From assembly GCA_903834845.1 (NCBI GenBank), contig CAILKW010000029.1:1-59380 (forward strand): a stretch of 59,380 nucleotides of DNA. Reading direction: 5' to 3'. This DNA is from an uncultured Bacteroidia bacterium. GTDB lineage: Bacteria; Bacteroidota; Bacteroidia; Bacteroidales; Prolixibacteraceae. This document shows positions 23,831 through 59,050 of this stretch, piece by piece (the stretch's first letter is position 1; every line of letters begins with the position of its first letter). Below the pieces are notes generated by a model. It ran no database searches and was not told the origin of the DNA. It worked only from the letters and a program-made list of their open reading frames with translations. The translations under genes were made by a program, and so were the position numbers.

Positions 23831-26800
23831 ATGTTAAAGAAGTGGCTTATCGGCTTTCCTTATCAGGGAAGTCAAAATAAAATATGGAAAATTATGAAAT
23901 TGACCCTTATTCTATTAATCGGTTTTATGATGACTGTATCAGCGAATAGTTATTCGCAAAAGACCAGACTCGATATTCAACTATCTAACACGACCATAAA
24001 AGGTCTGTTTGGATATATCGAGCAGAATAGTGAATTCGTTTTTCTTTATCGGAGCGAAGATTTAAATACCTCAAAAAAATTGAGCATTGACATCAAAAAT
24101 GCAACCATCTTCCAGATTCTGGATCAAGTGCTTAAAGACGAAAAAGTGGCTTACGACGTATACGAGCGTCAGATTGTCATCCGAAAGTCAACTGAATCAG
24201 CGGTTACTGCTCAGCAACCCGAAAAAAAAGAAATATCAGGAAAAGTTAGTGATTCAAAAGACCAGCCAATTCCAGGTGTAACGGTATTAGCGAAAGGTAC
24301 GACAATCGGGATCACGACCAATTTGGACGGAAAATACCGATTTTTTGTTCCGTCCGATACAAAAATTATTAGCTTCTCCTTTGTGGGTTTGAAGACTCAG
24401 GAAATAGAAATTAATGGTAATAACATTATAAATATCAAGATGTTTGAAGAAACAATCGGAGTTGATGAGGTCGTTATTGTTGGTTATATACGCCAAAATC
24501 GCCGAGATCTTTCTTCCTCGGTATCCAAGATTGATATGAAGGCCCTCGAAAATAACCCCACGGCCTCACTGATAAGCCTCTTAGTTGGGCAGGCGGCAGG
24601 AGTTCAATCTGTTATCAGAAGTGGGGCACCGGGTATCTCAGGAGGTGGCCTGGTAATTCGTGGAAATACATCCCTCTCTGCTTCCGATGGTATAGATGGT
24701 ATCAGCAACCCTTTGTATATTGTGGATGGTATTCCAATGTCCCTACAGGATCTTGCAGGATTTGACGTTTCACAAAACGATTTCCTTTCAACACTTAACC
24801 CGAACGAAATCAAATCAATTGATATTTTGAAAGATGCCGCTGCAACCGCGATTTATGGATCACGTGGGGCGAACGGTGTTGTTATTATTTCAACCAAACG
24901 AGGAATTAGTGGAGAAACCCGCTTTTCATCAAGCGTTTCTTATGGTTCAATCCTGGCTCCTGAAAAGATGAAAGTTTTTATAGGTGAAGCTGAACGGCAA
25001 GAAAAACTTAGATTATACGATCAAACCCTTACCACTTTTTTTGGAGATAAAGCATGGATTGATGTTCGTAATGGCCTTGAAGTAATGGGTTATTTTTTAC
25101 CTTCTGTGCTTACCGACAAATATAATCCGGCTTTTAACAATGCCTACGATTTTCAAAAGTTGTTTTACCAAACAGGTAATACTCAAAATATTGATCTCAG
25201 TATGGATGGGGGAACTGAAAAAAGCTCATACCGTATTGGATTAAGCCATTACAACGAAAAAGGAGTCTTGGTTGGTTATGGGTTTAAAAGGACCACTCTA
25301 AACGCTAGTTTAGTAAATGATGTAAACAAATTTATCCATAACGATTTTTCATTAAGATATAGTTACCTTGATCGTCAGGGTGGTTTAAATAGCTATATGA
25401 AAGCTATGCCTACGTCCCCCACTAATTTACCCTCATCATTATACTATCGCACTCCCGAAGAACTTTCACGTATGTCGGGTCAATTAGGCGACGCTTACAA
25501 TAAAAACAGAAGTCATAGTTTGTCGTTAAGCGATGCTTTGCGTTTTAAGATTACAAAAGATTTATCATTGGATAATCAGGCATCTGTTTCCTTAAATTTT
25601 GGATCAAACGATTATTTTATCCCCTCAACTGCCAGGGCCGACAATAAGAGCTTTGGCCAATCGCAATCGAGTGTAAATTCAACATTTAATGCGAATTCTG
25701 TTCTTACTTATAATAAAACATTCAAGTATCATCGCGTAACCGTATTGGCCGGAACCGAAATTAACTCCGACGATCAACAAATGTCGTGGATTCAAGCCGA
25801 TAACGGTACATCTGATTATTTAAAAGTAATTCAGGGATTTCAAAAAGAAAATATCGATGGATATTCGAATATTGTAAAAACCAATATGCTATCTTACTTT
25901 GGTTCGTTAAACTACGGTTATAAGGAGAATAAATATCAGTTTGAAGGTGTGGTCAGACGCGATGCTTCGTCTCGTTTTGGTGCTAACAACAAGTGGGCTA
26001 CATTCCCATCGGCAAAGGTACACTGGGTTTTCTCTAAAGAACCTTGGTTAAAAGGATGCTCTACCTGGCTCGACTTTGGAAAAATTCGTGTATCTTATGG
26101 TAACTCAGGTAGTATCGCGGGTGATCCTTTATTGCAATACAATTCCTTGATATCAACCAACAACATTGGTGCTGGAATGAACGATATTTATCGCAATAAA
26201 ATGGACGTAAAAACCTATGGAGGCCAAACCGTTGTTATTTCCGACTTTAACAGAGTATCGAACAAAGGTTTATCGTGGAGTAAATCGAGTGAAATAAACT
26301 ATGGGATAGATTTAGAGCTTTTTAAGAAAAGACTATTTGTTACCGGTGATGTTTATTCAAAATACATCTCTGGTTTGGTTTATACCTCAACTCTACCACA
26401 AAATGTTGGTTTTACGTCTATACAATCAAATCTGGTTGACATGATCAACAGTGGATTTGAGTTAAATCTTACCGGTTATATTTTCCCCCGAACCAGCGAT
26501 TTCCAGTGGGAATGGACCCTTAACCTTTCAAAAAACAACTCTAAAATTGCCAAACTGGGCAATGGAGGACGTGATTATATCAATGGAGATTATGCCTTTG
26601 TTGTTGGCAGACCCGCATTCCAGTATTATACCTATGAATACACCGGAGCACTCGATTCATTTGATGATTTGGAAGTTAATCCAGTAACCGGAAAACCAAT
26701 GAGCTATTTATGGGGTGACGCTGGTTTAGCTTTAGGACTTCAAGGCCGTATATTCCCGGGGATGCCTTTATTTACAGATGTAAATGGCGACTTCCAGATT

Positions 26801-27370
26801 GATGCCGGCGATTACGGTAACGATAAGATGATTATTCCAAATAAATCGCCTGAGCCAAAAATCATGGGAGGATTACATTCAACAATTCGTTACAAAGACT
26901 TCTCATTAAGAGTACAATCATCATTTGCCTTTGGTCATTATATTTTCAATACCACTCTTCAGGAACAGCTTACAAAATATGACGATCATGCTTTCTTCCT
27001 TGACGCCCTTTACCAAACTGATGACAGCAAATTCTGGTCGAAACCAGGAGATGGATCATACTATCCAATGCGCTTTATTTCTTATGCCGATGGAGGTTCT
27101 GTTCGTGCATTCAGAAGGTCATCCATGTTTCTTGAAAAAGGAGACTACTGGAGTATCGATAATGTTACGCTCTCATACAACTTGCCAAAGAAATTATTGT
27201 CGAGCATAAAATTACGTGGATTAAACCTTTACGGAACAGCACAAAATGTTTTTATGTGGAAAGCTTCAGGAGTACTCGATCCTCGCACAGTGTCGAAAAC
27301 AGGATACTATAGCGGAGATGGGTATCCAATCTCACGCAGTTTTATTTTTGGGTTAAGATTACAATTCTAA
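23831..27370 (+). CDS. SusC/RagA TonB-dependent transporter with STN domain
   Basis: In this 1179-residue outer membrane protein the signal peptide follows a 22-residue charged N-terminal extension (MKLTLILLIGFMMTVSA at 22-38). An STN domain occupies about residues 46-119 (LDIQLSNTTIKGLFGYIEQN, then VAYDVYERQIVIRK). A carboxypeptidase-regulatory-like domain follows at about 134-210, then the TonB-box-like VDEVVIVGY, the plug (VSKIDMKALENNPTASL, ILKDAAATAIYGSRGANGVV) and the beta-barrel ending in SFIFGLRLQF. It forms the import pore of a SusCD complex. The STN domain should contact the FecR encoded 92 bases upstream. SusD follows after 12 bases. Confidence 0.95.
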   Translation: MLKKWLIGFPYQGSQNKIWKIMKLTLILLIGFMMTVSANSYSQKTRLDIQLSNTTIKGLFGYIEQNSEFVFLYRSEDLNTSKKLSIDIKNATIFQILDQVLKDEKVAYDVYERQIVIRKSTESAVTAQQPEKKEISGKVSDSKDQPIPGVTVLAKGTTIGITTNLDGKYRFFVPSDTKIISFSFVGLKTQEIEINGNNIINIKMFEETIGVDEVVIVGYIRQNRRDLSSSVSKIDMKALENNPTASLISLLVGQAAGVQSVIRSGAPGISGGGLVIRGNTSLSASDGIDGISNPLYIVDGIPMSLQDLAGFDVSQNDFLSTLNPNEIKSIDILKDAAATAIYGSRGANGVVIISTKRGISGETRFSSSVSYGSILAPEKMKVFIGEAERQEKLRLYDQTLTTFFGDKAWIDVRNGLEVMGYFLPSVLTDKYNPAFNNAYDFQKLFYQTGNTQNIDLSMDGGTEKSSYRIGLSHYNEKGVLVGYGFKRTTLNASLVNDVNKFIHNDFSLRYSYLDRQGGLNSYMKAMPTSPTNLPSSLYYRTPEELSRMSGQLGDAYNKNRSHSLSLSDALRFKITKDLSLDNQASVSLNFGSNDYFIPSTARADNKSFGQSQSSVNSTFNANSVLTYNKTFKYHRVTVLAGTEINSDDQQMSWIQADNGTSDYLKVIQGFQKENIDGYSNIVKTNMLSYFGSLNYGYKENKYQFEGVVRRDASSRFGANNKWATFPSAKVHWVFSKEPWLKGCSTWLDFGKIRVSYGNSGSIAGDPLLQYNSLISTNNIGAGMNDIYRNKMDVKTYGGQTVVISDFNRVSNKGLSWSKSSEINYGIDLELFKKRLFVTGDVYSKYISGLVYTSTLPQNVGFTSIQSNLVDMINSGFELNLTGYIFPRTSDFQWEWTLNLSKNNSKIAKLGNGGRDYINGDYAFVVGRPAFQYYTYEYTGALDSFDDLEVNPVTGKPMSYLWGDAGLALGLQGRIFPGMPLFTDVNGDFQIDAGDYGNDKMIIPNKSPEPKIMGGLHSTIRYKDFSLRVQSSFAFGHYIFNTTLQEQLTKYDDHAFFLDALYQTDDSKFWSKPGDGSYYPMRFISYADGGSVRAFRRSSMFLEKGDYWSIDNVTLSYNLPKKLLSSIKLRGLNLYGTAQNVFMWKASGVLDPRTVSKTGYYSGDGYPISRSFIFGLRLQF

Positions 27371-27382
27371 TACATTTTTTTT

Positions 27383-28993
27383 ATGAAAAAGATATTTATA
27401 ATCCTGCTACTTTTACCTTTGTTAAATAGTTGCAGCTATCTATTAGAACCAGAGCAAGTAAATTTGGTGTATAACGATGTGTTTTGGAAAAATCCAAAAG
27501 ACGCGGAAACAGCACTTTTAGGAACCTATTCGTTGTACCGCGGACTTATGGCCGACGGTAACTGGTTTCATCGTGCTGATGCAACTACCGGTTTTTTCAA
27601 CAAGGGATGGCTTGGTGGGTCACCCGACCAGCTTTACCGTCCAGGTGACTTTGGCAATACCAGTACGGCAAAATCATTTGGAGCACTCGAAGGCCTCTCT
27701 GATTGGTCAAAATTTTATAAAGTTGTAGCACATGCCAATCTGGTTATCAAAAAAATTGAAGGAATGCCAGAGAATCTTTTTACGGATGATAAAAAGAATC
27801 AACTTTTAGGCGAAGGTTATTTTTTACGTGCCTTGGTTTACTTTAACATTCTCCGCAACTGGGGAAATGCACCTTACATCAGCGATGCTATTGAATCCTC
27901 GGAACAGGTTATTAACGAAGACCTGACACCTGTATTAATTGGCCGGACCAAAGACACCGAAATCGGGAAGAATGTACTGGCCGATGTAAATAAAGCCATT
28001 AGCATGTTGAAACACTCCAATCAAGCACTCACTGGATGGGGAATACGCGCCAATCGTGGTTCTGCCGAAGCTCTTGCCGGACATGTTAATCTGTGGATGA
28101 ACTTTCTGGCCAAACGCAACAATTTGCCAAGCCCGGAAAAGTATGTAACCGATGCGATTACCGCCCTTGAATCACTACAAACACAAGGGGGCTATAGTCT
28201 AATAAGTTATGATAGTCCTAATGCGATAACAAATTTATACAAAGGACAATCAAGTGAAGCTGTTTTTGAACTGAATGTTGCTTCTGACCAAAATGAATCA
28301 TATCGGATTGACCACGGAGGTGTAGTAAATTTCACCTGTAAAGTTGTACCCCTTGATGGTGACGTAACAAAAGACAGAGCAGGAAGTATCAATTTTGTGC
28401 CCATGGTTGAGAAAAATTTGATCTATCCGGAGTATAACTTTAATACCCAGAGTGGAGACATTCGCCCTAAACTATTTTTTGATGCCTGGGATTCGCCATA
28501 CAACGGTCCGTTTAGTGATGTAAGTCAAACTGAAAGAGATCGGAATCTGGTTACCTGGTTGAAAAAATACGCGATCATGACTGTTGACCCTGCGCATACG
28601 TGGAACGAATACATTCCTTACTTTGCCGAAGCCAATATTCCGGTATTTAGATACACCGACGCTTATCTGTTATTGGCCGAAGCCTATGTAAAAGCCAACC
28701 AGTCTGCAAAAGCCAAAGTTATAGTCGATGCAATCCGATCACGGGCCGGTCTGACTCCATTTACCGGAAGCGATTTATTAAAGGAAGTACTTCAACAACG
28801 TTCAGGTGAACTTATCGGCGAAGGACAAATCTATTATGATTTTGTTCGAAATAATTATTTCCCCAACCCGCAAACCATGGACAACTCGCGCTATTTGCAA
28901 CAGGGTTATTATTGGCCGGTATCTGCATCGATACTTGTTTCCAATAAACTTATTTCACAAACTCCTTATTGGAATGGTAAAACAACCTGGTAA
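27383..28993 (+). CDS. SusD/RagB-family glycan-binding lipoprotein
   Basis: The 536-residue lipoprotein has the lipobox LLNSC (Cys about residue 17). It has the SusD features YNDVFWKNPKDAETALLGTY near the N-terminus, GEGYFLRALVYFNILRNWG (TPR-like region) and FRYTDAYLLLAEAYVKANQS towards the C-terminus. It would cap the SusC pore encoded 12 bases upstream and bind the oligosaccharide. Ligand preference cannot be read from sequence alone. Confidence 0.95.
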   Translation: MKKIFIILLLLPLLNSCSYLLEPEQVNLVYNDVFWKNPKDAETALLGTYSLYRGLMADGNWFHRADATTGFFNKGWLGGSPDQLYRPGDFGNTSTAKSFGALEGLSDWSKFYKVVAHANLVIKKIEGMPENLFTDDKKNQLLGEGYFLRALVYFNILRNWGNAPYISDAIESSEQVINEDLTPVLIGRTKDTEIGKNVLADVNKAISMLKHSNQALTGWGIRANRGSAEALAGHVNLWMNFLAKRNNLPSPEKYVTDAITALESLQTQGGYSLISYDSPNAITNLYKGQSSEAVFELNVASDQNESYRIDHGGVVNFTCKVVPLDGDVTKDRAGSINFVPMVEKNLIYPEYNFNTQSGDIRPKLFFDAWDSPYNGPFSDVSQTERDRNLVTWLKKYAIMTVDPAHTWNEYIPYFAEANIPVFRYTDAYLLLAEAYVKANQSAKAKVIVDAIRSRAGLTPFTGSDLLKEVLQQRSGELIGEGQIYYDFVRNNYFPNPQTMDNSRYLQQGYYWPVSASILVSNKLISQTPYWNGKTTW

Positions 28994-29009
28994 TTAAAAC
29001 AATAAAAAT

Positions 29010-29789: not shown

Positions 29790-29806
29790 TTTTAAAACTC
29801 TCAAAG

Positions 29807-30916: not shown

Positions 30917-30926
30917 TCAGCTTATC

Positions 30927-30962: not shown

Positions 30963-30975
30963 ACAATAGGAAAAT

Positions 30976-32025: not shown

Positions 32026-32069
32026 ATATTTTCTTTAAATTCAATAAACAACCCCAATACTTCAACGAG

Positions 32070-43218: not shown

Positions 43219-46200
43219 TTACTTGAAATACTTTTGTATTAATCCAAGCAATTCGTCTTTGTTGATGGGCTTTGCAATATAATCGTTGCAACCTACTTCT
43301 ATTGCTTTTTCTCGGTCGGTTGATAGGCTGTAAGCTGTTTGTGCAATGATAATAGCCTTTTTGTTGAATTGACGAATATATCGTGTAGCCTCATATCCGT
43401 CCATTAAGGGCATTTGAATATCCATTAGAATTAAATCGATGTCAGGGTTATTGCGGCAAATCTCAACTGCTTCATTGCCTGACTTTGCTTTCAAAATTTC
43501 TTTGCCATGAGTCTTGATGGTTATATCAATCAACATTTCCGATACTTTATCATCTTCTACAATCAATATCTTCAATCCAGAAACTTTGGGGTCAATTTGA
43601 TTATTTGTTTTATCAATTACAACAACACTTTTAGCATCGATTTTTTCTTCTGGCCCTACGTTGTATGGCAGGGTGAAATAAAAGGTTGAACAAACGCCTT
43701 CTTCGCTTTCGACCCAAATAGTTCCGCCAAGCATTTCCACATAAGCTTTTGCAATGGACAAACCTAATCCCGAACCTTCGAATTGCCGGGTACTTGTGCT
43801 ATCGGCCTGCCTGAACCGGTCGAATATAACGTGCAATTTGTCTTTGCCAATACCAACACCGGTATCTTTAACCGAAAATTGGAGCTTACTGAGCTTACTG
43901 CCAGCCTTATTAACGATGCAAATGTCAAATTCAATTGATCCTGTTTTTGTAAATTTTATTGCATTGCCTATCAAAATGGAGATTATGGAGTACACTTTTT
44001 TAAAGTCTGTGGAGATGCTATCGATATTTGGGGGCAATTGGTTATTGATAACAAATTTCAATCCTTGAAATTCACAACTGGTTTTAAACTGGCCAAACAG
44101 TTTGTCCATTAAACTGCGGATATTTATTTCTGAAATTACCGCCTTGATCTGCCCTGCCTGAATCTGCGAGACTTCCACAATATCGTTGATCGTATTCATA
44201 AGCCGGAAGGCACTTTCGTTGATGATGTCAATAAATTTTGCCCTTTCGTCGTTCGTAAGATCAGGGTCATCCTTGATTAATCGCAGAAAACCTAGTATGC
44301 CGTTGAACGGGGTGCGTATTTCGTGCGAGATGTTATTTAGAAAAGCTTTTTTGAGATTGTTGCTTTCTTCGGCTTGTTCCTTGGCTTTAACGAGATCGTC
44401 TAATATTTTTTTCTTTTCGGTAGTATCTTCCTTTATGGCGATAAAAAAAGAAATGTCGCCATTATCGTCAGATACAGAGGTTATTACGGCACTTTCCCAA
44501 TAGATTTCGCCATTTTTCTTTTTATTCTGAAACTCACCGTACCAATTTTTGCCCGACAAAATTGTTTTCCATAGATCATCGTAAAACTCCTTGGTTTGCA
44601 TGCCCGATTGCCATAAAGAAGGTTTATTGCCTATTACATCCTGGGGCAAATAGCCTGATATTTCAGAGAACTCTGGGTTTACATATTCAATGATGCCATT
44701 GATATCGGTAATCAGAATGGAATTGGGGCTTTGTTCTACAACAAGCGATAACTTACGGATATGCTTTTCCTGTATTTTCTTCTCCTCTAACAACTTTATC
44801 TTGTTCAATGCGATGCTTATCTGGTTACATACCGATTCCAGGAAACCAATATCCTGTTCTGTCCAATCCCTTACAATGGTGGTTTGGTTAAGAACAATCA
44901 GATAGTATCCTGTTTCGTATAAGGCAAACGGAAACCAAAGCCCGCTTTTTATGTTCATCGAATCGTGAATTATCGTGGCCGAATCGTCTGCACTGAGCAA
45001 TGGGGAAACATTATTGACATGACTCTGGAAGGGCTGCCTGTTGTGGTACATCCACCATAGCGCAACTCCAAATAGATCAACAGGGTAGGAACCTTTTGTT
45101 GCGGTTAAGCCATTTGTTTCAGGATTGAGCCATTCGCAAAAGGCATGAATAAAACCCTCGCCAATGGCTACATCATAAATCAAAGCCCTGTCAGTTCCAA
45201 TGGCCTGGCCTATTATGCTTACAGTCTGCTCAAGTAAAGCTTTTGCCTCATCCGATGAAATGATTACTTCGGCAATCTGGTGAAGCGCGTTCGAAAAAGT
45301 CAGTTCCTTTTTAAGTTCAGTTTGTACCTTATGCCTTTCAATTACGCTTTCGATTATGTTTGCTGCCGATTTAAGCAGTTCTTGTTCTTCGTCTGACCAT
45401 TGGCTGTGTTGCCTTACAGAGTCGAGACCGATAAAACCAGCCAGTTTGCCTGAAAGGGCAAAAGGGGTTATGATGAGCGATTTTATGCCATAATGTTCAA
45501 GTGTTTCTTTTCCGGGCTGACTTCTAAGCGGGTGGTTGCTAATGTCGGGCAGATAGATGCTTCGTTGGTGTTTGAGTTCCTCCATCCACTCCGGTAACAG
45601 AGAGTTGTGTAGGTTCTGAAGATTTTTAATTTCCGGTTCGGTACCTTCAGCACACCATTCGTGCGTGTTCGACATGGTTTGACGGCTGTTGTTGAACGAA
45701 AACAGGTAAGCACGGTCGCAGTTGCTAAAACTACCGATTTTTGATAGCAAAAGGTTAATAACGGAGTCTGGGTTGTCATCGGAATCGTTGATAAATTGTT
45801 CGGATATTTTAAGCAGAATGGCCTCAAACTCTTTTATGTGCCTGAAGTTTTCGGCCTCATTTACCGATTCGGTGATGTCCCTGTATTTCCAGAGATGCCC
45901 GTTGTACTTGTTTTCAATAAATAAAGGGATATAATCCCTTTCGAAATACCGTCCATCTGCCAATTCCAGTTTGTTGCTGAGCGACATTTTTTTTTCAAAA
46001 AGGATACTATTGATATCGGCAATGAATTTTTCGGGATTTTTGAAGAATATTTTGCTTTGTTCGGCAGAGTCGGAACAATTTGCCCCTATAAGGGCATCGG
46101 GAGGTGCCGGAATGGAAAACATATCGCAAAACAACTGGTTTGTCAAAACAATATTCCGGTCCGAATCCTCAAGTAAAATACCTTCGTTCAGGTTCAAAAT

Positions 46201-47241
46201 CAGGAAGCGGTATATCTGTTCACTTCCGCGCAATTTTGCTTCGCTCTCGCGTAGTGCCTTTTCGGTCTGTTTAAGATCAGTGATATCCTGTAATGTGCCG
46301 TAAAGCCCTTCAACCTTACCGCTGGCACCAAACTTCGCCCCTCCAAGTGCATTCACATGCCGTGAGCTGCCGTAGGGTCGTATAAGTTCGAGTTCGAGCT
46401 GGTAGGGTTCACCTGTTTTAATCGCTTTTTCAACTGCCTGTTCCAGTGCCTGATAGCTTTGGGATGTGTAAATCCTAGATTGTTCGTTGAAAGAGGGTGC
46501 AGGGAGATTTGGGTCGAGACCTGCAATACGATATAGTTCCGTTGTCCATGTTACGTTATCTGTATCAGCTTTCCATTCCCAAACACCCAGGTGTGCTAAT
46601 TTATGCGCTTCGTCAAGCTTTTCTTCACTTTCCCTCAAAGCCGCTGTTACTTTTTCATTTTCAGCAATTTGCATTTTAAGTTGCAAATTCTTATATGCTT
46701 TTTCAGAGAGTTCGTTGGCAAAGAAAAACAACATTTTCGATATATTTTCAAATTGCCCGACCGACATAAAAGGGATTTCATTGAGTGCCTCAATAAACTC
46801 GGTCCTATTTGCTCCAATTTCGTCGGCATACTGTATCATCTGCTTTTCATCCATTCTTTCATTCCGTACCTGGCCTGCCATCCAATTGGCAATATGTTTG
46901 CCGCCAACCGTTATGCTTGCTCCGGCATCCCAAATGCCTCCGCTCAAACAAAGCTGTATATTTGGGCCAGATAGATTTTGCTTGCCAAGCAGGGCATCGG
47001 ATTTCATGCAGTTCTCATTGCCTTTACTGCTTTTGCGAATGATGTTTTTGCACAATCGGCAAAAATTGCTCGGTTTGGTAATTGGGGTTCCATCGGGTTG
47101 TGTTATAAGCGATGCAACACCTGTTGCATCCGAAAACAGGTCCTGTAAGCGTTGAATCTCCTCAATATTAAAAATATCGCTAAACTGAAAGTCCACGGGA
47201 GATTCAACATTCGTTTTTTCAATTACCAGTTTTGGGTCCAT
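43219..47241 (-). CDS. Soluble hybrid histidine kinase: PocR-PAS-PAS-GAF-GAF-PAS-HisKA-HATPase-REC
   Basis: The start is taken at the ATG at 47241 (MDPKLVIEKT), giving 1340 residues; an upstream ATG at 47337 would overlap the symporter gene. Order of domains: PocR sensor (about 20-190, CRLCKN...NENC cysteine cluster, IQLCLSGGIWDAGASI), PAS/PAC (225-335), PAS (345-470), two GAF (480-650, 660-845), PAS (850-965), HisKA with H973 in NISHEIRTPFNG, HATPase with DTGVGIGKDKL and GSGLGLSIAKA, and a receiver with D1274 in LMDIQMP. No membrane helix or signal is visible, so it senses in the cytoplasm, unlike periplasmic hybrid two-component sensors of many glycan loci. There is no DNA-binding output domain. 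It lies 43 bases after the symporter gene. Confidence 0.9.
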   Translation of the reverse strand: MDPKLVIEKTNVESPVDFQFSDIFNIEEIQRLQDLFSDATGVASLITQPDGTPITKPSNFCRLCKNIIRKSSKGNENCMKSDALLGKQNLSGPNIQLCLSGGIWDAGASITVGGKHIANWMAGQVRNERMDEKQMIQYADEIGANRTEFIEALNEIPFMSVGQFENISKMLFFFANELSEKAYKNLQLKMQIAENEKVTAALRESEEKLDEAHKLAHLGVWEWKADTDNVTWTTELYRIAGLDPNLPAPSFNEQSRIYTSQSYQALEQAVEKAIKTGEPYQLELELIRPYGSSRHVNALGGAKFGASGKVEGLYGTLQDITDLKQTEKALRESEAKLRGSEQIYRFLILNLNEGILLEDSDRNIVLTNQLFCDMFSIPAPPDALIGANCSDSAEQSKIFFKNPEKFIADINSILFEKKMSLSNKLELADGRYFERDYIPLFIENKYNGHLWKYRDITESVNEAENFRHIKEFEAILLKISEQFINDSDDNPDSVINLLLSKIGSFSNCDRAYLFSFNNSRQTMSNTHEWCAEGTEPEIKNLQNLHNSLLPEWMEELKHQRSIYLPDISNHPLRSQPGKETLEHYGIKSLIITPFALSGKLAGFIGLDSVRQHSQWSDEEQELLKSAANIIESVIERHKVQTELKKELTFSNALHQIAEVIISSDEAKALLEQTVSIIGQAIGTDRALIYDVAIGEGFIHAFCEWLNPETNGLTATKGSYPVDLFGVALWWMYHNRQPFQSHVNNVSPLLSADDSATIIHDSMNIKSGLWFPFALYETGYYLIVLNQTTIVRDWTEQDIGFLESVCNQISIALNKIKLLEEKKIQEKHIRKLSLVVEQSPNSILITDINGIIEYVNPEFSEISGYLPQDVIGNKPSLWQSGMQTKEFYDDLWKTILSGKNWYGEFQNKKKNGEIYWESAVITSVSDDNGDISFFIAIKEDTTEKKKILDDLVKAKEQAEESNNLKKAFLNNISHEIRTPFNGILGFLRLIKDDPDLTNDERAKFIDIINESAFRLMNTINDIVEVSQIQAGQIKAVISEINIRSLMDKLFGQFKTSCEFQGLKFVINNQLPPNIDSISTDFKKVYSIISILIGNAIKFTKTGSIEFDICIVNKAGSKLSKLQFSVKDTGVGIGKDKLHVIFDRFRQADSTSTRQFEGSGLGLSIAKAYVEMLGGTIWVESEEGVCSTFYFTLPYNVGPEEKIDAKSVVVIDKTNNQIDPKVSGLKILIVEDDKVSEMLIDITIKTHGKEILKAKSGNEAVEICRNNPDIDLILMDIQMPLMDGYEATRYIRQFNKKAIIIAQTAYSLSTDREKAIEVGCNDYIAKPINKDELLGLIQKYFK

Positions 47242-47284
47242 ATCAACATTCGTTATAATCAACAAATGTAATAATTTTTTTGCC

Positions 47285-49048
47285 TCAATTTTCGTCCCTT
47301 GGTGGCAGGATTTTATACCAGATAAAATAGAGGACAAATGTTAGAACAAGGGTCAGGGAGGCTGACCAATAGAAATTTGCCCAGTTGCGCAGGAAGGCAT
47401 AAAAAGGCATCATGGCCAGAGAAAACTGGAAAACACAAATTAAAACAAGGTTAAGTGCATCTAAATAGGGTGTTTTGTCCCCTTGCTTTACTAAACCTCT
47501 TTCAATGGCGGCATTTCGTACCGGGGCCCAAAAACCAAAGGGCTTCACATGTGCATAGAATTTTACTAATACATCCATTTCAGGAGGTTTGTTCAGTAAA
47601 CCAATGATTGTACAGAGCAAAAGACTTGCAGAAATATTCACTCCCAGCGACTGTGTCATCGTAATGTTTGGAAGGAACAGCTTCTGTGAAATGATGAATA
47701 CTGCTGAAGCAATCATGCCAAAGACAAAGGCTCTCGCACTAAATCTCCACCAATGCCAGCGCATGGTCGCCGGAACAAGAATCATCGTGACTACCACGAA
47801 TATCATTGTTTCCCAGGCCGATATGATGTTGTCAAAAGAGAAGCTTGCTATCAATGCAACCAACATAAACGCTCCGGAGGCTAACTGACCAAACCTGACC
47901 AATTGTTTTTCGGGATAATTCTTAAAAAAATAGATCTTTAGGAAATCGTTCAATACCACGGAACTGGTCACATTGATCATCGCGTTGAGCATCGAAATAA
48001 GGGAGGCCAAAAGGATGGCAATGAAGAATCCCTTTAACCCTATGGGGATGTGATTGATGACCATTGGCATAATTTTCTCGGCATCAAACCCTGCTTTCTG
48101 GCTGAAAAGGGAGATCCCCAAAACCATAAATGCAATTGCGATAATCCAGCGCAAGGTATAGCCTACAGTCCACATCCCTCCGGCAAGGGCTGCATCACGT
48201 GAACTACGGGCAGTAAGGAAAAACTGAAAATCCCAGACATTAGGTCCTGCAAGGATTCGGAAAACCATCCATGTAAACCCATAAAGCATCATTGGCCCAA
48301 ACAAATAGTAATGGTGATAGGCTGCAGGTGCAGTAGCGGTTAAATTGTCCCACAGGTTCCAGGATAACCCGATGGAACTCCATCCGGGAGCCTGTGCTGC
48401 AAGGTCAACAACAATATCGTTGCTAAAAACAAAAAAAGTCAATAGTACCGCTCCGATTGCAATCAATATCGTTTGCATGATATCCGTAATAATTACCCCC
48501 AGGAATCCACCAAGGGTCACATATATCCCGACAACTGCAAAAACCATAAAGGTTGATTGCTCCCGTGTAAAAGGGAGGAACTCCTCTGCAAATTTTCCGA
48601 TTCCCACTGCTACATAGATCAGGTTAAAGATCATCAGAAGCAACAAAAAGGTAGCGGCAGCAACCCTTGCCATTTCTGCATCTTTGTTTTTTCCGTAACG
48701 GGTTTCGTTCCACTCCGCAAAAGTCATTACCCCTGAGCGCCTTATCCATTTGGCCTGATAAGCCATGTACCCGGCAATTATCAACCATCCCCAGAAAATA
48801 TGGGTCATCCAGATTGATTTCAACCCTAAATAGTAAAGTGCGCCTATCATTGCCATAGTTCCAGTCATATCAATATAGCTTGAACATCCTGCCATACCGA
48901 GGAGCCACCAGGGCATATTGCGCCCTGCCAGGTAATAATTGTCGAGTTTGGAAGTGGCCATTTTTTTCACGATAAACCCTATTGTTACAATCACGCACAG
49001 ATAAAAAATGATGATTGCAATATCGACCCAATGCATAGTTGCTGACAT
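47285..49048 (-). CDS. Sodium:solute symporter (SSS family)
   Basis: The start is set at MSATMHW (49048), which removes a 29-residue non-membrane extension that would run into the UroD-like gene; the protein is 587 residues. It has about 14 hydrophobic helices, beginning VDIAIIIFYLCVIVTIGFIV. SSS motifs are YYLAGRNMPWWLLGMAGCSSYID, the WNETRYG helix start and GGFLGVIITDIMQTILI. It should import a sugar or sugar derivative with sodium. It lies 22 bases after the UroD-like gene and 43 before the kinase, in one operon. Confidence 0.9.
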   Translation of the reverse strand: MSATMHWVDIAIIIFYLCVIVTIGFIVKKMATSKLDNYYLAGRNMPWWLLGMAGCSSYIDMTGTMAMIGALYYLGLKSIWMTHIFWGWLIIAGYMAYQAKWIRRSGVMTFAEWNETRYGKNKDAEMARVAAATFLLLLMIFNLIYVAVGIGKFAEEFLPFTREQSTFMVFAVVGIYVTLGGFLGVIITDIMQTILIAIGAVLLTFFVFSNDIVVDLAAQAPGWSSIGLSWNLWDNLTATAPAAYHHYYLFGPMMLYGFTWMVFRILAGPNVWDFQFFLTARSSRDAALAGGMWTVGYTLRWIIAIAFMVLGISLFSQKAGFDAEKIMPMVINHIPIGLKGFFIAILLASLISMLNAMINVTSSVVLNDFLKIYFFKNYPEKQLVRFGQLASGAFMLVALIASFSFDNIISAWETMIFVVVTMILVPATMRWHWWRFSARAFVFGMIASAVFIISQKLFLPNITMTQSLGVNISASLLLCTIIGLLNKPPEMDVLVKFYAHVKPFGFWAPVRNAAIERGLVKQGDKTPYLDALNLVLICVFQFSLAMMPFYAFLRNWANFYWSASLTLVLTFVLYFIWYKILPPRDEN

Positions 49049-50186: not shown

Positions 50187-50207
50187 TCTATTTTTAGTGT
50201 TTGATTG

Positions 50208-52622: not shown

Positions 52623-52744
52623 TGGAAAATTTTAAAATAAGAAGGGCCATTTGTAACATTATTACCGAAAGCAAGGCGAACAATCAAATTCCGGTTTAAT
52701 CTTTTTTATGTACAAACAGCCCTTCAGAAATCTTATATTGAGGA

Positions 52745-53134: not shown

Positions 53135-53156
53135 ATAATTAATGATTTAATGATTG

Positions 53157-54665
53157 TTACATCTCGCTTCCAGGAGTTCCTCCAAATGTATATACAGTCT
53201 GTCCGTGCATGATCAATTCCGGTGCAGGAATGGGGAAATGGTAAGCTGTTCCTGACAATAACTGACCCAAACGGCGTTTGTCAAAATACCCAAGATGCGC
53301 CCATACAAGATCGCACTCAACGTACCTCTCGTAGAAAAGCTTATCTATCAGATCGTTGTCATTGTCGGTTGCAGGGGTTAAACCACCGATTGTTACCCGC
53401 GAGTTGTTGACCAGATCGGCGACACCGCTTTTCTGATTAAGACGGATCTTAGCTTCTGCAAGATATAAGTCGTTTTCAGCCTTAAGAAAATGGCCAACAT
53501 AACCATCTTCAACGTTGATAACATCATAATATCTGTAATAGATATATTCGCAGCGGATGAAATAACCGTAACCCACTCTTCCTACACGGCTCCAGCCCCA
53601 CCATTCATCACATTTCTCTTCCCACTTGAAATATTTTTTCAACCTTGCATCGGGACAGTTTTTAACCTCTCCCAATCGGTTTACACCTGTTGGCCATGGA
53701 TAAACTGCCGCTGGATCCTTCGGAGCCATTTTATTGATAAGCCACTGATTTCCTCTGATATAGCCCCAATTATAAAGAGCAAGGTAGTTTGCCCCTTCAT
53801 CCCGTGTCATCACTTTTCCTCTCCAGCCAGCTTCATACAGCACATTAAAATCTTGTTTTAATCCTTTTTCTGCATAAGATTTCACTTTGGCCCAATCTGT
53901 AGCGGTGTTTTCTGCAACGTTACGGGCATTTGAAACAAGAAATCTGGCAGCCATGGAATTGGCAAATTGCAGCAATTTCTCTTTATTGAACTCAACTCCA
54001 GGAATAACAGACTGATAGTCGGCATCAACATTATCACTTTGGATCAATGCAATCGCATCGTCCAAACGTTTAATTGCAAAGGCCATAACTTCTTTGTATG
54101 TTTTTGTATTCGCGACATAGTCGAAAGTAACAGGATCGTGTTCTTCTTTAAAAAGATAGGCTTTGTCGTAAAGCAGGGCAATATTTCCGTATAAAAGTGC
54201 TTCGATTATATAAACATGAGCTTTGGCCCTTTTGGTATAGTCGGTTCCTTGAAGGACTAATTTGTAGTTTGGATTCTCGAAAGTTTTTGAGAGTTTTATA
54301 GCCGTGCCGATACCTGAATAAAAATTGTACCATGCTCCAAAGTTGATCACAATTACCGGATCAGGATGTTGATCATTGAAAAGGGGTTGCCGCGGTATAA
54401 ACCAGAGCGGACCAGAACCCCATGATGCAGTTCCTGAAGCAAATAAGTCGGCATTACAAAACGCGATTGCCGGGCTGGCAGCAGTTGCGCCATTGTACCA
54501 TGTGTTGTAACCGTTTTTAAGGAGTGCATAAAAATCTTCCGGTGTATATAAATCGGCAATATTCGGCTGATTCTCATTTCTGACATTCAAATCCTTGAAC
54601 AGATCGTTACACGAAGTGGTGAATAGAACTGCTAAAGTGAATATTATGTATCTTAATGTTTTCAT
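53157..54665 (-). CDS. SusD/RagB-family glycan-binding lipoprotein, second pair
   Basis: The 502-residue lipoprotein has lipobox LFTTSC (Cys about residue 19), followed by NDLFKDLNVRNENQPN. A SusD-like TPR region has AKAHVYIIEALLYGNIALLYD, and the C-terminal part includes AENDLYLAEAKIRLNQKSG and LFYERYVECDLVWAHLGYFD. It belongs to the SusD-like_2/RagB group and is clearly different from the SusD at 27383. It starts 11 bases after its SusC. Confidence 0.92.
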   Translation of the reverse strand: MKTLRYIIFTLAVLFTTSCNDLFKDLNVRNENQPNIADLYTPEDFYALLKNGYNTWYNGATAASPAIAFCNADLFASGTASWGSGPLWFIPRQPLFNDQHPDPVIVINFGAWYNFYSGIGTAIKLSKTFENPNYKLVLQGTDYTKRAKAHVYIIEALLYGNIALLYDKAYLFKEEHDPVTFDYVANTKTYKEVMAFAIKRLDDAIALIQSDNVDADYQSVIPGVEFNKEKLLQFANSMAARFLVSNARNVAENTATDWAKVKSYAEKGLKQDFNVLYEAGWRGKVMTRDEGANYLALYNWGYIRGNQWLINKMAPKDPAAVYPWPTGVNRLGEVKNCPDARLKKYFKWEEKCDEWWGWSRVGRVGYGYFIRCEYIYYRYYDVINVEDGYVGHFLKAENDLYLAEAKIRLNQKSGVADLVNNSRVTIGGLTPATDNDNDLIDKLFYERYVECDLVWAHLGYFDKRRLGQLLSGTAYHFPIPAPELIMHGQTVYTFGGTPGSEM

Positions 54666-54676
54666 ATCTAAAGTTT

Positions 54677-57600
54677 TTAAAAGGTAACAGCTAAAGAGCC
54701 ACTAAACATCTTATAAAGCGGATACGAATCGTTTGAATCAAATCGGAAAGCATTTGAATCAACACCCTTTGATGGATCGCTTTTGACACTTTCAGGATCG
54801 AATCCAGGATAAGTGGTAAGCGTGAAAAGGTTTCTTCCTATCAGGCTAAACCGTACATTTTTTACGTATTTTTCCAGAAATGAAGGTTTGATGTCGTAAC
54901 TTAACGAGATTTCCCTGACTTTAAGGAAAGAGGCATCAAATGCCAATACATCATTGTCCCATCCCAAAATACCACCTGTTTGGCCGCTATTCTCGTAGTA
55001 TCCAATTGGTTTAACTGAATTCCATGGTAGTCCTGATTGATCAAGCAGCTTTGGTTCTGTGGTGTAACGGACGGAATGGTTATAAACCTGTCCACCATTC
55101 TGCCAGGAAGCCAAAACGTACAGTGTCAGTTTTTTGTAAGTAAGTGTCGATGTAAAATTCACATTAAAGTCGGGATTGAAGTTTGCACAGGGTAAAGCCA
55201 TTATATTTCCTTTGTCATCTTTAACTTTTACCGGTTTTTCAGTTACAGTACCTATAGAAGTTTTTTCTACAACAAATCCTTGATTATTAATAGCAAACCA
55301 TTCGTTAACAGTCCTGCCGGCAGGAATCTGGTTTTTAACTTCGTCAAGCGTCCTTGCGAATTTATCGAGATAAAGAACACCAAAGTCCACGCCCTCTTCA
55401 ATGCGGAAGCGTGTACCGTTTAACATGTAAGGTGTTGCGTTGAGTTTTGTAATTCTTTGTCTGATACGGTCAAACAAAAAAGAAACATCCCAGTTGACCT
55501 GTTTGTTTTTAATTACATTATAGCTTAAGCTTGCTTCAAAAGCTGTTGATTTGATCGTACCTGCATTTTGCCATTGAAAGGCGGCACCTGAAAGTGGGGA
55601 AATGGGTACTTTCAGAATTTGATCGGTATTTGTAGCATTTGAAAAGCTAAAGCTAAAATTGAACTTGTTGAGGAAGGCCAGATCAGTACCTATTTCCAAT
55701 TCACGCGAAAAAGAGGGTTTCAAGTTTTTATTACCAAGGGTCTCCATATTACCCGGGACTCCGTTAACCAATGAAAAAACCTCATATTGAGCATCGAAAG
55801 GAGGCCTTAAACCGGCAACTCCATAAGATGCCCTTAGTTTCCATTCTTCAATTCCTCGAATTTTAAAGTCCTGCGAAATACGCCATGCAGCTGAAGCCCT
55901 GTAAAACGTTTGCCATCTGACATCGGCTCCAAATAAGGATGATGCATCTCTCCTGACCAGAGCATCAACGATGTATTTATCCTTATAGTCCACGGCAGCA
56001 ATTGATGCATAATTGTAGGCAATGTTCTGATAAATACTTGACGAGGAACTTTGGTTGGCACTAAGGTTTATTGAGGTAACTCCCATGCCTCTAACGCCTA
56101 AGTTATTGCCCCCACCTGACAAACTGTTGCTTTCAGATGATTCGTATAGAAACTGGGCTTTTAACCTTGTATTGAAATCGCCATATTTTTTAAAAAAGGA
56201 ACCTTCGATAGTTACAATTTCTTCTTTGCTGTTCCATTGGCTTCTGCTGATGTAACCGTTATCTTCGGTAAGATCCGTTTTTAGTTTGCCTTTGGGCGAC
56301 AAGTAAAAGTCTTCGCCTATGCTGCGTGTTGTTCCATACGAAGCTTCAAAAAGCAGGTAATCAGTAGGTGTAAATTTTAGTCCTGTAAAAGAGATTAACT
56401 TTTGTGTTTTTCCATCACTAACCGTATTTGCAATCTCATAAAGTGGGTTGGAAGAACCTGAACTAATCTTGTTTACGTTTACTTTATAGGGTGTACCATC
56501 AGCGTTAGGAAGGGTAAGGTCAGCGTATGGGTCACTGTTAAGAAGGAGCCCAAATGCACCTGCAGCACGATTGTCGGTATTTGACTGCGAAAAAAGATTT
56601 GATGTGGTCAATTTCCATTTATCAGAAATCTGATAATCAAGGTTAAGCTTGAGGTTATTGCGGCTGTTGCCATCGACTAAGCTCACAATACCCTGTTCTT
56701 TAGTAGTTTGAATTGAAGAATATACCGAAATGCGCGAATCCTGGGAATTCCCCCTCAAAGATAAATAATTTGTTGTGTATCCACCCGGATTAAAAAACTG
56801 ACCAATATGATCGTATGTATTCGGATATAAATTGTCCATTACCTGATCTGGGTCATCATTGCTTGTCAGTAAACCGTTTTCAATAATTTTGTTGGTTGCC
56901 TTCGACTGTGGTGGAACATAGCCAATAAAACTTTTACCTGTTTCAATTCGATAATCAACCTGTACTTTGCCTGCTGCCATAGAACTTCCCCTTTTTGAAA
57001 AAATGCTGACAACCCCGTTGGCTGCACGCGATCCATATAGCGAAGATGCCGCAGCTCCCTTAAGTACTTCAATCGATTCGATGTCTTCAACATTTACGTC
57101 GGACAAGCCTAACTCTGTTTGGACACCATCTATGATTATCAATGGGTTGGAACTTCCAAAAATTGTTTTTACCCCTCGAAGCTGGATGTCGGATCCCGAA
57201 CCAGGTGCACCACTTGTTTTGGTTATTTTTACTCCGGCCACCTTACCTTGGATTGCAGAAGCAGCGTCAATTGCAGGAACCAATTGTAAACTCTTTGAAC
57301 TTATTTTCTCAATCGAAAAACCCAATTTGCGTTTTGGAGTCCCACTGGCTACACCAGTAATTACTACCTCATCAACATCAATTGTTTCATCTGTCATCCA
57401 AATAGTGAAGGAGTTTTTACCGTTTTCAATTATAACTTCCTGCGTCTTCATCCCAACAAATGAGAATATAAGAGCTTTGGCTTCAATAGGCACTGAAAAT
57501 TTAAACTTTCCCTCAATGTCAGTGGTAATCCCAATAGTTGTTCCTTTGGCCAGAATAGTCACACCAGGTATAGGTAAACCTTTTGAATCAAATACTAAAC

Positions 57601-57766
57601 CCTTTACTTCTTTTTTTTGTGATTGCTGAGAATTATCAACATTTGTAATATTTGCCGATAAAGTCATCACAAAACCGAAAAGAAGTACAATGGTCAATTT
57701 CATAATTTTCCAAAGCTTTTTTTGACTTCCCCTGTCAGGAAAGCCGTTAATCCAATTTTTTTGCAT
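54677..57766 (-). CDS. SusC/RagA TonB-dependent transporter without STN domain
   Basis: This 1029-residue outer membrane protein shares the N-terminal extension and signal peptide with the SusC at 23831 (NGFPDRGSQKKLWKIMKLT against IGFPYQGSQNKIWKIMKLT). After the signal peptide only some 12 linker residues (TNVDNSQQSQ) precede the carboxypeptidase-like domain (KEVKGLVFDSKGLPIPGVTI); the roughly 80-residue STN domain is absent. TonB-box-like VDEVVITG, plug (IEVLKGAAASSLYGSRAANG) and barrel ending FSGSLAVTF are complete. It transports oligosaccharide with its SusD, but without STN it should not signal to the FecR encoded 90 bases upstream. Confidence 0.95.
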   Translation of the reverse strand: MQKNWINGFPDRGSQKKLWKIMKLTIVLLFGFVMTLSANITNVDNSQQSQKKEVKGLVFDSKGLPIPGVTILAKGTTIGITTDIEGKFKFSVPIEAKALIFSFVGMKTQEVIIENGKNSFTIWMTDETIDVDEVVITGVASGTPKRKLGFSIEKISSKSLQLVPAIDAASAIQGKVAGVKITKTSGAPGSGSDIQLRGVKTIFGSSNPLIIIDGVQTELGLSDVNVEDIESIEVLKGAAASSLYGSRAANGVVSIFSKRGSSMAAGKVQVDYRIETGKSFIGYVPPQSKATNKIIENGLLTSNDDPDQVMDNLYPNTYDHIGQFFNPGGYTTNYLSLRGNSQDSRISVYSSIQTTKEQGIVSLVDGNSRNNLKLNLDYQISDKWKLTTSNLFSQSNTDNRAAGAFGLLLNSDPYADLTLPNADGTPYKVNVNKISSGSSNPLYEIANTVSDGKTQKLISFTGLKFTPTDYLLFEASYGTTRSIGEDFYLSPKGKLKTDLTEDNGYISRSQWNSKEEIVTIEGSFFKKYGDFNTRLKAQFLYESSESNSLSGGGNNLGVRGMGVTSINLSANQSSSSSIYQNIAYNYASIAAVDYKDKYIVDALVRRDASSLFGADVRWQTFYRASAAWRISQDFKIRGIEEWKLRASYGVAGLRPPFDAQYEVFSLVNGVPGNMETLGNKNLKPSFSRELEIGTDLAFLNKFNFSFSFSNATNTDQILKVPISPLSGAAFQWQNAGTIKSTAFEASLSYNVIKNKQVNWDVSFLFDRIRQRITKLNATPYMLNGTRFRIEEGVDFGVLYLDKFARTLDEVKNQIPAGRTVNEWFAINNQGFVVEKTSIGTVTEKPVKVKDDKGNIMALPCANFNPDFNVNFTSTLTYKKLTLYVLASWQNGGQVYNHSVRYTTEPKLLDQSGLPWNSVKPIGYYENSGQTGGILGWDNDVLAFDASFLKVREISLSYDIKPSFLEKYVKNVRFSLIGRNLFTLTTYPGFDPESVKSDPSKGVDSNAFRFDSNDSYPLYKMFSGSLAVTF

Positions 57767-57817
57767 ACTTTTGAACTGTTTTAATGAATAAATACTGTAT
57801 TGATTTGGTGTTTATTG

Positions 57818-57849
57818 AAACCGGGAGATGTTCCACCATTTTCCGGTTT
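57818..57849 (-). promoter_or_regulatory. Conserved hairpin between fecR and susC, second copy
   Basis: AAACCGG (57818-57824) and CCGGTTT (57843-57849) pair perfectly. The loop side carries the same GGTGGAACAT word as the copy at 23748. Stem changes relative to that copy are compensatory. Confidence 0.6.
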
Positions 57850-57856
57850 TTTATTG

Positions 57857-59050
57857 TTACTTTATAGTGTATTGATTTTCATTCACTTGTTCGAATCTGG
57901 ACAAAGAGACTTTCTCCAGATATTCCATCACCTCCTTTCTGCTTCTCTTTAAATCAAGTTTACCACTAATACGCATTATCTCCTTTTGGCGATCTGAAAA
58001 ATTGATCGAAATATTGTAAAAACGTTCCAATTTTTTAATGACACGAACAAAATCTATCTCATCAAAACTAATCAACCCCTTTGTCCACAATGTGTAATAA
58101 TCGGTGTCAATTTCATATATTTTCGTGTTGTTGTTGCTTTTATTAAACGATGCCATTTGATTGGGCTTAATAAGTATATCATTCACGAAAAGGCCAGCTC
58201 CTTGTTGTCTGATAGCGACACTTCCTTCTTTCAAAACTGTTTGAATTACGTTATCTTCAGGATAGGCCGAAACGTTAAACTTTGTTCCAAATACTTTAAT
58301 ATCAATGTTTGAAGTTTTTACAATAAAAGGTTTTTCCTGATTTTTTGCAACTTCAAAATAAGCTTCGCCGAATAGTAACACCTCACGGGTTTTATCCTTA
58401 AACAATGTCGGATATACAAGACGGCTTCCGGCATTCAGCCAAACCACAGTATTATCAGATAATACAACTTTTGATTGATTTCCGTAAGGAATAACCAATT
58501 GATTCATCACGTTTAGAGCATCTTCAGTTGTCTGAAGAACGGAATCATTATTTAAAACTACAGCCCCGCTACGAGAATAATCAACTGTGGAATTTGATTT
58601 TTTAAGATTTACATTTTCGCCATTTGAAGTAATCAGCAATGGCCCCTGAGTTGAAGAAGAAACCTGAATTGTCTGCCTTGCAAACTCCTGATAAATAGTT
58701 TCTTTTCCCATTTTTGTATAAACCACCAAACCCCCAATCCCGGCAAAAATCAGGGCAACAGCCGCATACTTCAAAAAGGTATGAAGCATCAGCCGAATTT
58801 TGTTTTGTTTTAAATCGTGATTGATTTTATTGATAATCCGTTTGCTCAGTTCCTCTTTTTCAGAAAGAGGGAGCCTATCGTTTGAAAACCTTAGGTCGCA
58901 CAGACGATCTTTTAGTTCAAGAATTCTGTTTCTTTCATCAGGATGTTCAAGCAGGTAATGTTCCCAATGGGTTTCGATAGCCGGAGTAGTATTGAATATC
59001 CACTTAAGGAATTCAAGATTTTCTATATATTTTTGATCAAAAGAAGTCAT
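57857..59050 (-). CDS. FecR-family anti-sigma factor
   Basis: The 397-residue protein has an N-terminal cytoplasmic region, one membrane helix (LKYAAVALIFAGIGGLVVYT, about residues 93-112), a periplasmic FecR domain with consensus residues (VIPYGNQSKVVLSDNTVVWL, NAGSRLVYPTLF, GEAYFEVAKNQEKPF) and a C-terminal DUF4974-like domain (FYNISINFSDRQKEIMRISG). It should hold an ECF sigma factor at the membrane. No sigma gene is within the 330 bases upstream that remain in the window. It heads the minus-strand operon, whose SusC lacks the STN domain that usually signals to FecR. Confidence 0.93.
   Translation of the reverse strand: MTSFDQKYIENLEFLKWIFNTTPAIETHWEHYLLEHPDERNRILELKDRLCDLRFSNDRLPLSEKEELSKRIINKINHDLKQNKIRLMLHTFLKYAAVALIFAGIGGLVVYTKMGKETIYQEFARQTIQVSSSTQGPLLITSNGENVNLKKSNSTVDYSRSGAVVLNNDSVLQTTEDALNVMNQLVIPYGNQSKVVLSDNTVVWLNAGSRLVYPTLFKDKTREVLLFGEAYFEVAKNQEKPFIVKTSNIDIKVFGTKFNVSAYPEDNVIQTVLKEGSVAIRQQGAGLFVNDILIKPNQMASFNKSNNNTKIYEIDTDYYTLWTKGLISFDEIDFVRVIKKLERFYNISINFSDRQKEIMRISGKLDLKRSRKEVMEYLEKVSLSRFEQVNENQYTIK

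Follow-up and report, generated by a model that had tools for sequence, protein, structure and literature searches.

The window analysed here, the whole 59,380 nucleotides of contig CAILKW010000029.1 from an uncultured Bacteroidia bacterium of the family Prolixibacteraceae (assembly GCA_903834845.1), contains one glycan-uptake cluster whose two arms lie on opposed strands of this single contig, each led by a FecR-type sigma regulator and a SusC-type TonB-dependent transporter. As read from the sequence, each arm bears a copy of one and the same regulatory head, consisting of a predicted promoter, FecR, the SusC signal peptide and the STN signaling domain. The regulator that remains under constraint (FecR2, arm 2) and the STN that remains under constraint (STN1, in SusC1 of arm 1) now stand in different arms. 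STN1, the sole STN of its type found, is most likely the STN partner of FecR2, and a single unlinked extracytoplasmic function (ECF) sigma factor very probably controls both arms. The usual arrangement in Bacteroidota places a single sigma factor next to a single FecR and a single STN receptor. The genes and domain concerned are the following.

22554..23738, + strand: FecR1, sigma regulator under relaxed selection (Pfam, tree, codon models)
23831..27370, + strand: SusC1, TonB-dependent transporter with FecR2-type signal peptide and STN, and with plug and barrel of the type seen in the family genomes G133 and G138
23960..24187, + strand: STN of SusC1, about residues 44-119, sole STN of the FecR2 type found in the genome
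54677..57766, - strand: SusC2, TonB-dependent transporter lacking an STN, with the deletion junction near 57649/57650
57857..59050, - strand: FecR2, constrained sigma regulator (Pfam, codon models, structure model)

In SusC1, Pfam detects the STN at residues 70-119 with 30.5 bits (cut-off 28.4), whereas SusC2 yields CarbopepD_reg_2 (hereafter CTD) and Plug matches but none to STN, even with the threshold relaxed to E 1. When the 5' ends of the two genes are compared as DNA, the alignment continues on either side of a single in-frame gap of 81 codons (SusC1 residues about 40-120). The STN of SusC2 has therefore gone by deletion and not by a frameshift; the idea that it is merely out of frame was rejected, since the DNA itself lacks it. 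A sequence-only reading of this DNA had claimed that SusC2 has lost exactly the STN and that SusC1 keeps it, and both claims hold. Across 33 FecR-linked receptor N-termini (two from the window and 31 from relatives), Pfam finds an STN at E 0.001 or better in 32, SusC2 being the exception. It is also the exception within its own genome, where a receptor is in view for 35 of the 39 FecR matches and 34 of these receptors have an STN (Pfam detects it in 32, in four of these below the curated cut-off; in C352 it is visible by eye and weakly matched at E 0.0014, and in C93 by eye only). Of the other four FecR matches, three lie at contig ends and the fourth, the protein C362, has no receptor. Among 395 genomes sampled from the class, a search with SusC2 returned only its own match at E 1e-250. 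A receptor with an STN thus stands beside the FecR gene in arm 1 and not in arm 2, giving one STN for the cluster. By sequence this STN is of the FecR2 type: it keeps 24 of the 25 positions invariant in that type (17 heads compared), the next-scoring STN of the genome is 41% identical to it, and none of 37 further matches exceeds 44%.

The two regulators are sister copies under unequal constraint. Pfam scores the FecR domain at 26.8 bits in FecR1, which is over the cut-off, and at 63.3 bits in FecR2, and FecR_C at 18.1 bits in FecR1, under the cut-off of 24.4, and at 37.6 bits in FecR2. When the FecR matches of the genome are ranked (assembly of 8.25 Mb in 851 contigs), FecR1 comes 39th of 39 with 28.9 bits and FecR2 14th. 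Full-length FecR2 orthologues at 56-75% identity occur in 17 of the 140 family genomes searched, where at most the best 13 candidates per genome were scored and copy numbers in relatives are therefore lower bounds. A tree of 31 sequences, which omits the partial FecRs L094, L095 and L096 and a second, unrelated FecR of L077, joins FecR1 and FecR2 with support 100 on branches of 0.531 and 0.053, respectively. Within the close clade (19 of the 31 sequences), to which the comparisons of invariant positions and of synonymous divergence (dS) refer, FecR1 breaks 33 of 108 clade-invariant positions, FecR2 3 of 111, and each of 17 relatives 0-6 of 108-114; the breaks in FecR1 include 11 of 23 in FecR_C, 11 of 43 in FecR and 3 of 9 in the anti-sigma domain (ASD). 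Residues changed in one copy only number 106 in FecR1 and 15 in FecR2 with L075 as outgroup, 101 and 13 with L076, 99 and 12 with L078, and 91 and 16 with L081. The dS between the two copies is 0.72-0.77, and the arms are 88% identical in their FecR-SusC spacers and 89% in their promoter regions.

Codon models fitted to six of the 19 close-clade sequences give a nonsynonymous to synonymous rate ratio (omega) of 0.082 for the background, 0.42 for FecR1 and 0.059 for FecR2. The FecR1 value differs from a one-ratio model (likelihood ratio statistic 49.0, p 2.6e-12) and from omega 1 (9.5, p 0.002), while that of FecR2 is not distinguishable from the background (p 0.43), although its own receptor lacks an STN. 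By domain, omega rises from background to FecR1 from 0.035 to 0.40 in FecR, from 0.038 to 0.50 in FecR_C and from 0.15 to 0.39 in the ASD, with rough p-values because the restricted per-domain fits ran few iterations; the relative relaxation is largest in the periplasmic part, since the background there is 0.035-0.038 against 0.15 in the ASD. In a neutral simulation, genes free of stop codons numbered 4 of 2000 at 145 changes and 0 of 2000 at 200 changes. FecR1 was therefore rejected as a pseudogene, its omega being below 1 and a neutral history being very likely to leave stops; on these models it is a relaxed but open gene whose constraint has fallen about five-fold. The claims of the sequence-only reading on the regulators fare unequally: FecR2 does keep the consensus, and FecR1 has indeed departed from conserved positions, although "lost" is too strong a word for an open, relaxed gene.

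The sigma factor was located away from the window. With the sigma of G092, which lies beside a FecR, as query and all 66 candidates scored, the genome holds a single orthologue, at C237:1558-2178(-), 74% identical to the query, the next best being 31%. It matches TIGR02937 with 70.5 bits (cut-off 42.9), is not adjacent to a FecR, and has thrC, apgM, thrA and recA as neighbors; no FecR was found in the 20 kb of C237 that were read. An AAA-like fragment, recognized by eye and without an NCBIfam match, adjoins it (L142 1-531). Of 20 loci in relatives, 17 have the sigma orthologue upstream of the FecR2-type FecR in the same orientation, at 66 nt to about 2 kb, and the other three loci begin within 225 nt of the FecR gene or inside it (0-225 nt upstream). 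In one of the relatives (L075, genome G080) a gene that looks by eye like an oxidoreductase stands between sigma and FecR, a layout that is perhaps an intermediate toward an unlinked sigma. Across the 140 family genomes a sigma match at E 1e-50 occurs in 39, with at least one copy in 38 and at least two in G007, these being lower bounds from at most the best 22 candidates per genome. Four short elements of the window connect both arms to this sigma type:

22346..22402, + strand: remnant of the sigma-gene 3' end, arm 1 (blastn 84% over 57 nt to C237)
22506..22544, + strand: ECF-type promoter-like motif TGTCCCTT..CTCTT, arm 1 (motif search)
59060..59098, - strand: ECF-type promoter-like motif, arm 2 (motif search)
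59182..59233, - strand: remnant of the sigma-gene 3' end, arm 2 (52 nt at 85%, E 9.2e-6; 64 nt at 83%)

Before FecR1, the 3' tail of the C237 sigma is recognizable over 42 nt at 90% (E 2.4e-9), corresponding to about the last 20 codons, and tblastn places sigma residues 187-206 there (E 6.6e-4). A decayed but complete sigma gene was rejected upstream of FecR1, where only about these last 20 codons were found, and upstream of FecR2, where the 330 bases give no protein-level match better than E 1.2. The tails are read as the left edge of the copied piece. Of 20 upstream regions read, two from the window and 18 from relatives, 19 have a promoter-like motif, TGTCCCTT...CTCTT[AG], before FecR with one mismatch allowed, L085 differing at the last base. 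A longer form with up to three mismatches has two matches in the 8.25 Mb, both at the arms, and none in a reversed control; because the motif was built from sequences, including both arms, that it then found, its value lies in its absence elsewhere. More widely in the genome, a sigma region-2 match lies within about 2.3 kb of the FecR domain for 29 of the 39 FecRs, one of them on the other strand. The ten without a near sigma comprise the two in the window and others of which some are at contig ends and some are orphans, so a FecR without an adjacent sigma is not unique to the window. The composition of C237 correlates with that of the window at 0.976; L081, from another genome of the genus, reaches 0.970, so composition cannot separate members of the genus. 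The sequence-only reading was right that the window holds no sigma gene, with the caveat that the contig ends at 59380, 330 bases before FecR2, and its proposal of one sigma for both arms is well supported by the single orthologue, the 3' tails before both FecRs and the motif confined to the arms. That reading would have sought the sigma just past 59380, where the contig offers no sequence; the one located is that on C237.

Each receptor combines a head and a body of different affinity. Among the 140 family genomes, orthologues of SusC2 (74-77%) occur in G133, G110 and G050 and those of SusC1 (71-72%) in G133 and G138, and the FecRs adjoining these orthologues share no more than 33-41% identity with FecR2 across the aligned part. 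The heads of the genus were represented by 17 sequences (L079, which is short, and L088, with no SusC on its contig, being omitted). The STN of SusC1 is 70% identical to these heads (mean) and 26-29% to the orthologues, whereas the first part of its plug is 28% identical to the heads and 75-78% to the orthologues; for SusC2, the signal peptide gives 62% against 22-35% and the plug 28% against 78-87%. The picture is less sharp for the CTD between these parts. Its two halves are 55 and 46% identical to the heads in SusC2 and 48 and 48% in SusC1, as against 41-49 and 32-41% to the orthologues, and between SusC1 and SusC2 they share 27 of 41 and 23 of 41 residues. The deletion junction of SusC2 was considered as the recombination point and rejected, since the first CTD half is closer to SusC1 (27/41) than to the orthologues (17-20/41). 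Given this SusC1-like half, the head exchange probably reached toward the plug and the STN was lost later. Junction mapping is weakest at this point, because the first CTD half of SusC1 is equally near the orthologues (41-49%) and the heads (mean 48%).

The same head type recurs in relatives on unlike bodies: FecR2-type heads occur on nine barrel groups in 16 receptors, whose barrels are under 40% identical in 98 of 120 receptor pairs (mean 28%) and whose heads are 62% identical. Two FecR2-type heads of G094 are 82% identical in the STN and 31% in plug and barrel, and stand at an assembly fork. The fork lies inside FecR (L094, L095, L096), where one 5' half with the sigma joins two different 3' halves through 149 identical bases; both heads keep their STN, on unrelated barrels. 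For the broader proposal that SusC sensor heads are exchangeable modules, in which a single piece running from promoter through FecR, signal peptide and STN to the CTD is copied up to roughly the plug boundary and recruits transporters to an existing sigma, ending here in a split trans pathway from STN1 through FecR2 and one sigma to both arms, we consider the chances about even.

A parallel is provided by G133, which belongs to another genus of the family. Its cluster has orthologous transporters and, like the window, two related heads for one sigma, which in G133 is adjacent; it differs in its head type, its tandem layout and the retention of both STNs. The order is sigma, FecRa, SusC2 and, further on, FecRb, SusC1, in tandem behind one sigma gene. 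FecRa and FecRb are 56% identical, the STNs 76% and the receptors from the plug onward (residues 215-500) 29%; the 294 bases before the second FecR leave no room for another sigma, a statement limited to that interval since no search was made elsewhere in G133, and the two FecR upstream regions share TTAGGGAT...GTGTATTAAT. These paired heads are apparently an independent parallel, unlike the head type of the window. It thus appears that paired heads were fitted to these two transporters on two occasions, which indicates co-regulation as the gain. The sequence-only reading had named relatives in which both pairs keep STN and FecR as a refutation of its proposal. G133 is in part such a case; because its head type differs, it looks like the state before loss and not like a contradiction.

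The STN-docking strand of FecR was examined by comparison with PupR. A profile of 42 FecR sequences finds PupR in the PDB (6ovk, 6ovm) at E 4e-12, with a better match to a Parabacteroides anti-sigma factor (4m0n, E 6e-60), and aligns R-V-S-G-T of PupR with R360-I-S362-G-K of FecR2. PupR residues R284, S286 and T288 are at the interface with the transducer STN (available part of PMC7186176), their placement on RVSGT being that of the present analysis, and the equivalent strand of FoxR, S292-V294, is at the interface in a model (available part of PMC11637429). In FecR2 and the 17 relatives this strand is invariant as RISGKLDL, and in FecR1 it reads VINGKINI; the segment is a strand in the models of both. 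The FecR2 model (mean pLDDT 86.4) matches 4m0n with a TM score of 0.90 and PupR 6ovk_R with 0.86 (E 2.3e-16), both by target length. At the same alignment depth the FecR1 model has a confidence of 77.0, its ASD being about equal to that of FecR2 and its periplasmic part lower.

A scheme joining these results seems to us rather probable as a whole. The head (sigma 3' tail, promoter, FecR, SusC signal peptide, STN and probably CTD) would have been copied before the plug-barrels of two SusC genes, bringing both arms under the unlinked C237 sigma. Since a single sigma would then have had two STNs and two FecRs, one STN and one FecR would have been redundant, and redundant parts would go: the STN of SusC2 by deletion, and FecR1 through falling constraint. 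Substrate at SusC1 would then move STN1, which would act on FecR2 in the periplasm; FecR2 would release the sigma, and the sigma would turn on both arms, including the "blind" transporter SusC2. The frame of FecR1 is probably kept either because stop codons would be costly, by exerting polarity on SusC1 or by leaving an anti-sigma fragment without regulation, or else because the protein still binds sigma weakly. The DNA itself shows the duplication of the head, a sigma type and a promoter motif common to both arms, the deletion of the STN and asymmetric constraint, and from them we infer transcription from both promoters, contact of STN1 with FecR2, the direction of signaling and the reason why FecR1 stays open. 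Cross-talk of STN1 with FecR2 fits the kept invariants of STN1, the lack of a near STN copy and the constraint on FecR2 despite the missing STN of its own receptor. One good FecR could hold a shared sigma, because loss of the anti-sigma BT1876 in Bacteroides raises the transporter transcript of polysaccharide utilization locus (PUL) 24 about 50-fold on glucose (available part of PMC11501099). FecR2 would also need some STN, because the signaling domain, or STN, of FoxR protects its anti-sigma from proteolysis in the absence of a signal (available part of PMC11637429). Set against duplication-degeneration-complementation, the copies come from a single duplication and the losses are complementary, STN in arm 2 and FecR in arm 1. 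The label "reciprocal decay of signaling" given by the sequence-only reading is better replaced by loss of redundant parts after duplication.

Several observations weigh against this scheme. The relaxation of FecR1 is spread over all domains (0.39-0.50), beyond the STN-binding part; FecR1 is not neutral, its omega below 1 implying that it still does something; and its model, though less confident, still folds. Changes are over-represented in the docking strand only at a borderline level (5 of 8 against 28 of 100, Fisher p 0.055), and the difference in broken invariants between FecR_C (11/23) and the ASD with the transmembrane segment (6/19) gives p 0.35. In FoxR, the substitution S292A did not stop binding (available part of PMC11637429). 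Saturation of background dS (by NG86, about 2 or more when genus members are compared with FecR2) makes the omega ratios approximate, and the low omega of FecR2 could partly predate the loss of the STN. Finally, the contig ends 330 bases upstream of FecR2, at 59380, and the assembly consists of 851 contigs with 8.2 Mb and 6.09% contamination.

Other explanations distribute the same evidence differently. FecR1 might have diverged in order to serve STN1 alone, leaving FecR2 as a sensor-free anti-sigma that sets the threshold for the shared sigma; FecR1 does adjoin STN1, keeps an open frame that neutral simulation seldom preserves, and has an omega below 1, but STN1 has not changed along with it (24/25 invariants kept) and FecR2 retains every docking-strand residue and an omega of 0.059 without an STN in cis, so that this insulation in cis appears unlikely. 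A very recent loss of the SusC2 STN, with FecR2 lacking the time to drift and arm 2 now constitutive or uninducible, would suit the clean deletion, and, if the shielding of the anti-sigma by the FoxR signaling domain is a guide (available part of PMC11637429), a FecR without an STN could be unstable and the sigma active. Such recency leaves unexplained why the relaxed copy is FecR1, which has an STN in cis, and the dS of 0.72-0.77 measures time since duplication, though not necessarily since deletion; we hold it to be unlikely.

It is very improbable that the sigma route is vestigial in both arms and that the cluster is regulated by the PocR-GAF-PAS hybrid histidine kinase at 43219-47337, since the promoter motif, FecR2, STN1 and the sigma have all been conserved; the kinase does lie at the distal end of arm 2, and in PUL24 of B. 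thetaiotaomicron the anti-sigma route operates alongside a further regulator (available part of PMC11501099). An assembly or binning artefact that brought together arms or a sigma contig from different organisms would be favored by the fragmentation, contamination and size of the assembly and by a composition that does not discriminate between members of the genus; the window, however, is a single contig, and both arms carry tails of the C237 sigma type, which makes this the faintest of prospects.

Compared with known systems, the cluster has the same three components as Fec, Pup and Fox cell-surface signaling, namely an STN transducer, a FecR-type regulator and an ECF sigma, and FecR2 resembles the periplasmic domain of PupR by profile and by fold (6ovk_R). 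It is unlike them in having two regulators and two receptors per sigma, an unlinked sigma, and its STN and constrained FecR in different operons. Bacteroides PUL24 likewise combines sigma, anti-sigma and SusC-like receptor (BT1877/BT1876/BT1875), with one sigma/anti-sigma pair for that one PUL (available part of PMC11501099), whereas in the present cluster one sigma very probably stands over two opposed arms with complementary losses. No earlier description of the arrangement was found in the open-access library searched. The cluster suggests that transporters can join a regulon by copying of the sensor head, after which partners may part into different operons. It offers a natural test of STN-FecR specificity, with sister FecRs that differ mainly in kept constraint and a single STN, and it cautions that the regulation of glycan-uptake loci can be assigned wrongly when sigma, FecR and SusC are paired solely because they are adjacent.

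The remaining features of the two arms are the partner SusD genes and the spacers between FecR and SusC.

23739..23830, + strand: FecR-SusC spacer with conserved hairpin, arm 1 (stem CCTG/CAGG by eye)
27383..28993, + strand: SusD1 (Pfam SusD_RagB)
53157..54665, - strand: SusD2 (by position, and because the gene following the SusC2 orthologue of G133 is 75% identical; without a Pfam match)
57767..57856, - strand: FecR-SusC spacer with conserved hairpin, arm 2 (spacer alignment)

Each arm has a SusC/SusD pair, with a plug in both SusC proteins and SusD_RagB in SusD1, SusD2 being assigned by orthology only. Arm 1 further encodes a fasciclin-like protein, a DUF5007 protein, two DUF2961 proteins, which we take to be of the GH172 type, an FGE-sulfatase domain protein, GH127 and a GH63-like protein. 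Arm 2 encodes a 129-residue protein, a GH38 alpha-mannosidase, a URO-D-type protein, an SSF symporter and, on the - strand, the PocR hybrid kinase, which also carries a receiver domain and is a possible second regulator of the cluster. To the left of arm 1 lie two AAA-type ATPase genes (14167-15840 and 19421-20995) and a sulfatase gene truncated at its 5' end (21169 to about 21790, - strand), and between the latter and FecR1 some 750 bases show no clear gene; the truncation and the gene-poor stretch suggest an insertion or rearrangement there.

The hairpin between FecR and SusC, ACCGG..AATG....CATT..CCGGT, is conserved in 29 aligned spacers, namely 27 of the 28 from relatives (a second L077 locus being omitted) and the two of the window. 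It was rejected as a known RNA family, no Rfam match being found in the window or in L075 and L093. Four of its eight predicted pairs are changed on both sides in one sequence, with a covariation term near zero (0.02), and it possibly serves translational or attenuation control of SusC.

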